Below, one piece after another: positions 6,362 to 15,300 of a stretch of 64,000 nucleotides of DNA (position 1 is its first letter; each line of letters starts with the position of its first letter). The notes below the pieces were generated by a model. It worked only from the letters and a program-made list of their open reading frames with translations, did not search any database and was not told where the DNA came from. Location of the stretch: positions 778,942 to 842,941 of the forward strand of contig NZ_LFZV01000001.1 of assembly GCF_001183965.1 (NCBI RefSeq). Direction: 5' to 3'. This DNA is from Bacillus sp. FJAT-27916. GTDB lineage: Bacteria > Bacillota > Bacilli > Bacillales > Pradoshiaceae. The translations under genes were made by a program, and so were the position numbers.

Positions 6362-6410
6362 AAGCCCTGTATGAGTCCACCATAACGGACTTTTACAGGG
6401 CCTTTTTTGT
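6362..6410 (+). terminator. Terminator of trmB-ytnP
   Basis: The outer stem GCCCTGT/ACAGGGC has an inner GTCC/GGAC stem and is followed by CTTTTTTG. Confidence 0.85.
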
Positions 6411-6503: not shown

Positions 6504-6870
6504 ATCGCCTATACCCAAGTAAAGGAGCCCATACACGGGGGATATCGCCCATACCCAAATAATTTAGCCCATAAAAATGACTGTTCGCTCTTAAACAAAG
6601 TGATTTCGCCCTTAACGCTAAGTTGTTCGCCCATAAACCTGATTTTTTCGCCCTTAAATCGTGAAATTAGGATTATTTCTTCAAAAATCGAAAGCCAATC
6701 AATGCCAAAAGATAAAAAAATAGACAAGCTGAGCAGTTTTTTTGAAAGAAATTCAGCCTTTTTCATCCGAAACTCTTTCAAAAACTTCTTGGATTCCACC
6801 AGTATGATTTTCCGAGTTTTCCTATGGCGCACCAAATACTCAATCAGAATCTACCCTTTGCCCTTAAGTC
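6504..6870. repeat. Phased GCCC(A/T)TAA repeat array in a gene-free stretch
   Basis: Eight degenerate copies of a TTCGCCC(A/T)TAAA-type unit have their GCCC-like core starting at 6507, 6527, 6547, 6567, 6587, 6608, 6629 and 6650. The spacings are 20, 20, 20, 20, 21, 21 and 21 bp, two helical turns each. A ninth copy is at 6860, 210 bp after the eighth. Copies eight and nine share a longer context, CCCTTAA then a GAAATTA a few bases on, and AAAAATCGAAAGC occurs at 6683 and 6926. Reading frames across it code for low-complexity peptides (SPIN/SPL-like on +, KGE/MGE-like on -) and look like shadows. No promoter or gene is convincing in 6411-6983. Confidence 0.7.
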
Positions 6871-6983
6871 CCGAAATTAAGCTTCTCCTCTATAAGAAAG
6901 AGGGTCTATCAACACTAGAAGGACGAAAAATCGAAAGCTGAAGCCGTTTTTTTACTGTTCGCTTAGGGAGAAAATCCTGATAA

Positions 6984-7018
6984 CCATAAAAATAGCCGGC
7001 TCTTAAAAGAGCCGGACT
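6984..7018 (-). terminator. Terminator of ytzB
   Basis: Perfect stem CCGGCTCTT/AAGAGCCGG with a T-rich tail on the minus strand. Confidence 0.8.
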
Positions 7019-12324: not shown

Positions 12325-15300
12325 ATGAGCTTTTTCAAAAAGATTGTTGATTGGTTTCATGATGACGAAGAGGATGAAGTTGAAGCATATGACCAAGAAC
12401 CAAAGCCGCAAAAGCCTAAGAATAAGCAAAGCAAGCCGCCGGCTGATATAGAGACTGGAATAGAAACGAAAATACAATATAAATATCCAAAAGATAATTT
12501 TAAATTCCCGATGATCTCGGATGAAGAAATCAAGCGATTGAATGAACGGAAGAAAAAGCAGAAGGTGGAAGGTCAACAAATGCATAGCGACGGGAGGGAA
12601 TGGGCTCCTGTTGCCTCAGCCATTGAAGAGCAGCCGCTTCCCCCATTACGGAAACCGCTGAAGGTGACAAGGCAAAAAAACGTAACAACGACTGTTCAGC
12701 CTAACAAAACACCATTCAGGAGAACAGAAATCCCATCCCCTATCTATGGGTTCCAAAATAGACAGGCTGGTACGAAGAAGCAGAAGACCGTTGAATATGA
12801 GCTGTCCTCACAGCCCACCCTTGATTCTGTATTGGCCTTAATGAGAGGAAAAGGGGCAGATTCAGCTGAAAAGCAGACAATGTCTGTGACTGGACCTCTG
12901 CCGGAAGACCAAAGCCAAGAATGGAAGGATGAGCGTCTCGCTACAGAAGAGGAAATGGCTCTTATTAAGCGGGAAAACCAGCTTTTCCATGAGGAAATCG
13001 CGGCTGACCCTGCTGAGGAGACTGCAATCCCTACTAATGACCTGCGAAACGATGAGAAGCTCGTTGAAGTAGAGAATACGAATCAAGACCTTGCTGAAAA
13101 TGGCCTGTTTATACAGTCTGCTGCTACGGAAACAGTTGAAATCATTCCTGAGGAGAAAGCAATTATCTTGGATCGGACTGAAGAGGAGAAAAATGTCGAT
13201 TTAGAAGAGTCATCTGTATCCGTTGAACTGTCAGGGGCAGAACAGTCTGAAGCTAAGGAACCAGCTGAAATCATTGCCGATGAGACAACAATGATCTCTG
13301 GTGGGAATGAAGAGGAGAAGAATGTCGATTTAGAAGCGTCATCTGTATCCGTTGAACTGTCAGGGGCAGAACAGCCTGAAGCTAAGGACACAGTTGAAAT
13401 CATTCCTGAGGAGAAAGCAATCATCTTGGATCGGACTGAAGAGGAGAAAAATGTCGATTTAGAAGAGTCATCTGTATCCGTTGAACTGTCAGGGGCAGAA
13501 CAGCCTGCTGAAGAGGGGACAAACCTTGAGGTCAGGGAAGAAGAGGCTGTTCTGGAAATGAATGAGCTGTCTGTTGAAGAAGCAGCAGATACAGCGTATT
13601 CTAACCTGCCGGCTGAAGAAGATGTTACAGCTGCGGAAATGCCCGTTTCCGCACTTAGCATGGATCCACTTGAGACAGCTGATTCAGAAGAGGATGCTCC
13701 GTCCATGACGGATGCTGTCCCTGCTAATGGACCTGAGAAGGAGCCGATAACGGAAAAGCCGGTATTTGACCTCTCCTTGGCCGTTAATGAGGCTGCCGAA
13801 GAAAAGGCTGAGTCTGTAAGTGAAACCCCTGTAGAGGCAGAGCAAGAGAATCCTGCTCAGGATGAGAGTGCCGCGGAGCCGAAGCTCGAAGTCATTACTT
13901 CTGGAATTGGCGAAGATGAGGACCGCAAAGCAGAGCGGGCGCGAAGAATTGAGGAGCGGAGAAAGCATATCCCATTCAATGTTCTGATGCTGAAACAGGA
14001 TAAGGCAAGAATGGCTGGCAGAAAAGAGGAGAAACCTCAACAGACATCACAGGAGCCGGCCATCCTGGCAGATAAAAAAAAACAAAATGAATCCTACAGC
14101 TACCCGGATATTTCCATCCTGAAGCCGAAAATGGCTGTTCAGGAGGATTCTGATTGGCTGGCTGAGCAGGCGGAATTGCTCGATCAGACTCTTGAACAAT
14201 TCAATGTAAAAGCAAAGGTATTTGCTTATTATCAAGGACCTTCTGTTACAAGATTTGAGGTCCAGCCGGAACCGGGCGTTAAGGTAAGCAAAATCACGAA
14301 TTTGAGTGATGACTTGAAGCTTTCCCTTGCCGCAAAGGATATCCGTATAGAGGCGCCTATTCCTGGTAAGCGAATGATTGGCATTGAGATTCCGAATCTG
14401 CGCACTCGCCCTGTCTATTTGCGGGAAGTGCTGGAGGAGGATGTATTCCTGCAGTCAGATTCACCGCTGACAACGGCAGTCGGTCTTGATATTTCAGGTA
14501 ACCCGATTGTGACAGACTTGAAGAAAATGCCGCACGGCTTGGTGGCTGGCTCTACCGGATCAGGTAAAAGCGTGTTTATCAACTCCATCTTAGTGAGCTT
14601 ATTGTATAAAGCCAATCCGAGTGATGTCCGGCTGCTATTGATTGACCCGAAAATGGTCGAACTTGCTCCGTATAATCATATTCCACATTTGGCTGCCCCT
14701 GTAATTACGGATGTGAAGGCGGCAACAGCAGCCTTGAAATGGGCGGTGGAGGAGATGGACAGGCGCTATGAGCTCTTTGCTCACTCCGGGGCACGAGATA
14801 TTGTCCGATATAATCAAAAGGCTGTTGAATCCGGCCAACTTGAGCATAAGCTCCCATACTTGGTCATCATTATTGATGAGCTTGCGGACTTGATGATGAT
14901 GTCTCCTGCTGATGTGGAAGAAGCCATTTGCCGAATTGCACAAAAGGCGAGGGCGTGCGGTATTCATTTACTGGTGGCGACACAACGGCCATCAGTGGAT
15001 GTAATTACTGGATTAATCAAGGCGAATATTCCAACGCGGATTGCCTTCTCGGTGTCCTCTCAGGTAGATTCAAGAACGATTCTCGACCAAGGCGGCGCAG
15101 AGAAGCTGTTAGGCCGAGGAGATATGCTCTTCCTGGAAAATGGCACATCGAAAACGGTTCGTTTGCAGGGGACCTTTGTGACAGATGATGAAATCGAGCA
15201 GGTTGTTGAGTATGTAAAAAGCCATGCGAAACCGAATTACATGTTTGAACCGTCTGACTTGCTCAAGCATGCGGATGTGCAGGAAGAAAAGGATGAACTC

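Follow-up and report, generated by a model that had tools for sequence, protein, structure and literature searches.

A leader with phased A/T tracts and an array of helically phased 12-bp cores make up a dispersed intergenic element at gene ends in Bacillus sp. FJAT-27916

The window analyzed here, a 64,000-nucleotide stretch of the Bacillus sp. FJAT-27916 chromosome, carries between the ytnP and ytzB genes one copy of a DNA element that is dispersed through the genome in dozens of intergenic copies and combines a leader of phased A/T tracts with an array of short direct repeats. The element probably holds a wrapped DNA-protein complex where transcription ends. It is undescribed as far as open-licence papers show, as no published account of it was found among them.

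The array of the window consists of eight 12-bp cores on the minus strand, with the consensus TTTAWGGGCGAA (Table 1). A first-pass annotation of this DNA had placed cores at 6507-6650 with gaps of 20, 20, 20, 20, 21, 21 and 21 bp, exactly as found here, within a gene-free stretch of about 570 bp between two terminator hairpins, which was borne out by a terminator scan for ytzB and by eye for ytnP. Its description of nine GCCC(A/T)TAA units held in part: the octamer is exact in four of the eight units and in the copy at 6860, the four others being variants (GCCTATAC, GCCCATAC twice, and GCTCTTAA), and the real unit is not this short motif but the longer 12-bp core of the opposite strand. The octamer count alone is unremarkable (8 matches in the window vs 4.5 expected, with 7 of 100 shuffles reaching 8); it is the phased run that is striking, with a six-unit chain at 20/21 bp, scored under a fixed mismatch limit, compared to a longest chain of two in 3000 first-order Markov resamples. 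The ninth unit, claimed at 6860, is indeed spaced from unit 1 by exactly 10 x 21 bp; a profile search, however, assigned it to a second, truncated leader as its first unit. This truncated element matches model positions 40-140 of profile R1 (E 7e-9), has its core at 6857-6868, and shows the same tandem layout as the double element of locus L056. The leader of the complete element was aligned with 27 other leaders (profile match at window positions 6626-6783, E 8e-26), and its upstream edge near 6811 is approximate. The earlier reading included neither the leader nor the tandem second element, nor the membership of a dispersed family. A promoter-driven array was rejected, as no sigma-A-like promoter was found in the array region of the window; a weak TTGTCT-N17-TAGAT likeness is present in the leaders. 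Elsewhere in the window, a 129-bp tandem repeat (13123-13507, three copies, 87% alike) may be coding, 129 being a multiple of three.

Table 1. Features of the double element and its surroundings, in window coordinates.
Feature	Sequence	Position	Strand	Gap (bp)	Remarks
Unit 1 core	TTTAAGGGCGAA	6647..6658	-		
Unit 2 core	TTTATGGGCGAA	6626..6637	-	21	
Unit 3 core	GTTAAGGGCGAA	6605..6616	-	21	
Unit 4 core	TTTAAGAGCGAA	6584..6595	-	21	
Unit 5 core	TTTATGGGCTAA	6564..6575	-	20	
Unit 6 core	GGTATGGGCGAT	6544..6555	-	20	
Unit 7, degenerate	GTGTATGGGCTC	6524..6535	-	20	Letters read directly
Unit 8 core	GGTATAGGCGAT	6504..6515	-	20	
Leader	contains CAGCTTGTCTATTTT; ends CTAATTTCACGA	6659..6811	-		Phased A/T tracts, ~10.4 bp; ends just before unit 1
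Second, truncated element		6855..6955	-		Upstream; partial leader and one unit; profile R1
ytzB intrinsic terminator		6996..7015	-		Just upstream of the double element; terminator scan
ytnP terminator hairpin		6362..6408	.		Convergent gene; downstream of the array; inverted repeat and T run, read by eye

A profile of the leader plus two units detected about 45-50 copies in the 4.15-Mb genome, a count that varies with the thresholds used and includes several copies missed by the pattern search. The paired core pattern matches the genome many times, whereas the reversed pattern gives almost no matches. Forty loci were fetched, one of which (L066, with one core inside a gene) was set aside, and 42 arrays including that of the window, with 206 units in total, were analyzed. 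The usual array contains 2-10 units at intervals of 20 or 21 bp, and its spacers vary and carry little information. Successive gaps, chained within a permitted range of 19-22 bp, measured 20 bp in 103 cases, 21 bp in 58 and 19 bp in three, and nearly all unrestricted distances between pairs of the same core fell at 20-21, 40-42, 60-63 or 80-84 bp. The arrays are polar, the first gap being mostly 21 bp (27/38) and later ones mostly 20 bp, with core starts shifting from TTTA to GGTA; no fixed 3' end was found for the elements of this genome.

Common to the copies is a leader module of about 130 bp upstream of the first unit, in which the conserved positions are A/T tracts approximately one helical turn apart. 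Its AA/TT signal is strongest at a period of 10.4-10.5 bp (mean power 1.44 vs 0.34 +/- 0.04 in shuffles), compared to 10.3 bp in the arrays, and the AA/TT power at 10.0-10.8 bp reaches a z of 26.7 in the leaders of this genome vs 0.9 in random window DNA. Judged by its sequence, the leader is intrinsically curved DNA. In the 13 copies measured, the CAGCTTGTCTATTTTGA motif lies 55 bp (nine copies) or 53-57 bp (the others) from the first core. Leader and array also keep a non-random rotational phase relative to each other (R 0.58, p about 3e-4). Of the three explanations that had been put forward for the window array, curvature is thus supported by the 10.4-bp phased tracts, and cooperative protein binding by the 20/21-bp phasing in 42 arrays and the conserved cores. 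On the other hand, simple expansion by slippage found no support, as the cores repeat between units and the spacers do not, even though units are gained and lost, as illustrated by the orthologous arrays L137 and L169.

A coding heptad repeat was rejected because gaps of 20 and 21 bp are mixed and the open frame is broken. A structured RNA was also rejected: predicted folds of array RNA are not more stable than those of dinucleotide shuffles (z +0.3 to +2.5), the leader alignment has no consensus base pairs, and no element tested matched Rfam, where the only matches elsewhere in the loci were rRNA, 5S and a purine riboswitch. Across six pairs, orthologous or paralogous and drawn from three genera, substitutions affected 14 of 299 core vs 42 of 228 spacer positions (p 6e-7), a four times lower change in cores from a test that leans to conserved cores, the cores having served to find the units; two of the pairs share one array. 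As both modules are helically phased, with strict cores and free spacers but without reading frame or RNA structure, we interpret the element as double-stranded DNA for protein binding and wrapping.

The elements are concentrated at gene 3' ends and avoid promoters. Convergent gaps hold 20 of the 40 classified sites, compared to a baseline of 15% (p 2e-7), and divergent gaps hold none, compared to 27% (p 3e-6), the baselines being derived with a simple gene caller from gaps of at least 100 bp in the window and in stretches of two congeners (G001 and G002); two further sites were set aside, as they look divergent only because an IS256-family transposase adjoins them. This placement points to a role of the element at the ends of transcription. 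A strand bias relative to the upstream gene was rejected, since it is trivial between convergent genes and not significant in tandem gaps (same strand as the gene in 14, opposite in 6), and by count the replication strands are used about evenly. With the terminus placed opposite dnaA (4.09 Mb), elements are commoner towards oriC (KS p 2.5e-5) and sparse between approximately 1.9 and 3.3 Mb. At least five follow 5S rRNA or 5S-like sequence, although these copies are alike and not all independent; the resemblance among the elements after such genes (L322, L323, L084, L086, L088, and L078) suggests that rRNA-linked elements were copied along with the operons. The flanking genes belong to unrelated housekeeping families without a shared regulator, and no partition protein was found among the 30 flanking proteins scanned. 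Copies of an IS256/Mutator-family transposase (PF00872, ~389 aa) lie inside or beside five arrays (L061, L062, L063, L080, and L081), and this insertion element may prefer bent array DNA as a target.

Sequence likeness between copies rises with their proximity on the chromosome (Mantel p 0.0025, or 0.006 when rRNA-linked and tandem copies are left out), so copies seem to have spread or been homogenised locally. In the sister species G002, whose hpf gene is 96% identical, there is no element between hpf and secA, the sites corresponding to L056 and L057 are empty, and that of L059 keeps a leader fragment and one degraded unit; inspection by eye of the three empty sites and the remnant revealed no clean edges or target duplication. 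G002 also lacks an array at the ytzB locus of the window, and upstream of tsaE it holds a degraded array with 20/21 spacing, in the same place as L086 of this genome. The sister species therefore lives without most elements, implying a function that can be dispensed with or replaced. At its ytzB locus (L289, C1:3235850), the more distant congener G001 carries nine units every 20-21 bp with GAGCGA for GGGCGA in the core, and no other such array was found in 400 kb of that genome; it either descends from an old array whose core has changed or arose independently. No clear array was detected downstream of ytzB in 26 other relatives screened. Unit number varies both between the orthologous arrays L137 and L169 and between L086 and L323.

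Across the order, the two-unit pattern matches 17 of 397 genomes, in several cases through one match only, which may be due to chance. Clear arrays were found in Rossellomorea aquimaris and one other Rossellomorea (2 of 36 genomes), in Neobacillus vireti, N. soli, N. novalis and a related Bacillus sp., and, with cores ending in GGGCAAA, in two other families (G104 and G006). The first-pass annotation had pointed to similar arrays in other Bacillaceae, which the arrays found there corroborate, and had proposed that its reading would fail if copies elsewhere lost core or spacing or were part of a coding sequence; both are kept, and the mixed gaps exclude a coding repeat. Core letters vary between genera (TATAAGGGCGAA, TCWATGGGCGAA, and TTACGGGCAAA) and the spacing stays at 20-21 bp, specifically 20 in Rossellomorea, 21 in Neobacillus, 21/20 in G104 and 21 in G006. 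A/T phasing of 10.4 bp is present upstream of the Neobacillus (z 11.7) and Rossellomorea (z 6.4) arrays, where a shared leader sequence is not evident, and is unclear in G104 (z 1.0) and G006 (z 2.1), with few arrays each. A cross-phylum pattern scan matched many genera, almost all at 21-bp multiples as coding heptads would give, and only its matches in Neobacillus, Bacillus sp. AFS006103 and Rossellomorea were used. The Rossellomorea arrays L101-L109 have a fixed tail, CTRCCGATTTTTCGACA, the other strand of which resembles a Spo0A box (TGTCGAA).

The reading that we favor, with confidence slightly short of even, is that the phased sites are bound cooperatively by a candidate sequence-specific protein, which wraps the bent DNA and so generates a topological or transcriptional boundary after terminators. 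The strictness and lineage specificity of the cores make a dedicated protein of this kind the most likely. It would contact the cores from a single side of the helix and oligomerise from site to site, aided by the pre-bent leader, and the resulting complex might wrap about 300 bp. Its action as a boundary after the terminator, a weaker proposal than the binding itself, would consist in blocking read-through or antisense transcription where genes converge, or in holding supercoils from converging polymerases. Co-evolution of the putative protein and its sites would explain the core differences between genera, and loss of the protein could explain the erosion of elements in G002. Several observations count against this reading: the flanking genes are unrelated and share no regulator, upstream curvature is unclear in G104 and G006, and the sister species lacks most elements. 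A broader proposal, that the elements are a new class of post-terminator boundary in the Bacillaceae, with a curved leader, a phased array and a dedicated lineage-specific architectural protein that polymerises and co-evolves with its cores, is put forward only tentatively.

The main rival for the wrapping is DNA gyrase, and for the distribution a selfish element. As strong gyrase wrapping sites, the elements would offer phased, bendable arms to the GyrA C-terminal domains for removal of positive supercoils ahead of transcription, by analogy with BIME-2/REP clusters and the strong gyrase site of Mu. The 130-bp gyrase motif of E. coli has arms in which GC content varies with a period of 10.75 bp, and cleavage sites are more frequent after rRNA operons and within BIME-2 (PMC6379681), which parallels the 10.4- and 10.3-bp periods of leader and array, the elements after 5S rRNA genes, and the 3'-end and near-origin placement. 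However, that motif is degenerate and read indirectly, whereas strict 12-mer cores point to direct base recognition, and gyrase is universal while the arrays are patchy, in the order as within Rossellomorea; we regard this reading as unlikely. A selfish non-autonomous repeat, whose phased sites bind the recombinase or transposase that copies it and whose 3'-end placement reflects nothing but harmless insertion, is likewise unlikely; in its favor are the tandem double elements (L056 and the window), the greater likeness of close copies, the duplicated arrays L105 and L106 at different loci of one genome, the empty sites of the sister species and the patchy distribution. Against it, no terminal inverted repeats, target duplications or, in this genome, fixed 3' end were seen, a burst of near-identical copies is absent except for the tandem and rRNA-linked ones, and the neighboring genes encode no transposase except the unrelated IS256-family insertion; moreover, one array was possibly retained at the ytzB locus of G001, and the leader in other genera keeps its curvature but not an evident sequence.

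Two further explanations carry little weight. Functionless tandem repeats decaying after slippage could account for the differing unit numbers of L137/L169 and L086/L323, but this is very unlikely, as spacers differ within an array while cores agree, the 20/21 alternation does not drift over up to 10 units, and a phase-locked curved leader is present. Centromere-like or nucleoid-occlusion sites bound by a ParR/TubR-like segregation protein are the least probable reading of all, although pSK41 ParR binds 20-bp tandem direct repeats and wraps the DNA in a solenoid (PMC9426499) and the arrays are biased to the origin and sparse at ~1.9-3.3 Mb. Known par arrays adjoin a par operon, whereas these elements are dispersed beside unrelated genes; the sister species lacks most of them, and blastn searches found no match on plasmids or phages. 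A plasmid or phage origin was also rejected on this ground, although seven viral contigs match the three-unit pattern.

If the favored reading of a protein-wrapped boundary is true, dozens of helically phased sites are hard-wired at the gene ends of a large bacterial group, comparable in position to the gyrase-binding repeats of enterobacteria and quite different in construction, and the element provides a defined substrate to find the binding protein and to test the insulation of neighboring or convergent genes from read-through and supercoiling. Frameshifting "hypothetical proteins", which gene callers may annotate in regions of this kind, are also explained by the element.

The elements resemble plasmid iterons, whose direct repeats likewise recur at about two helical turns and adjoin bent A/T-rich DNA, but occur in dozens of chromosomal copies with no replication gene nearby. 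The bcr repeats of Bacillus cereus are, like the elements, dispersed intergenic repeats of a Bacillaceae chromosome, a likeness drawn at the level of description. The REP/BIME-2 repeats of enterobacteria, of which BIME-2 is bound by gyrase (PMC6379681), also occur in tens of intergenic copies at gene 3' ends with a patchy distribution between species, and in this placement the elements agree with them (20/40 convergent and 0/40 divergent, the two IS-disrupted sites set aside). However, REP/BIME are palindromic hairpin-formers, whereas the element units are direct, non-palindromic and phased at two turns after curved DNA, and fold no better than shuffles. Strong gyrase sites share a helically phased composition over ~130 bp, with the 10-11 bp phasing seen here in leaders (10.4) and arrays (10.3), and an enrichment downstream of rRNA operons, but their motif is degenerate and the elements have strict 12-bp cores in long arrays. 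Finally, the ParMRC and TubZRC centromeres (parC and tubC, with the 20-bp repeats of pSK41) are likewise tandem direct repeats of ~20 bp with room for a wrapping protein; unlike them, the elements are dispersed on the chromosome in dozens of copies at gene 3' ends, with no linked par genes.
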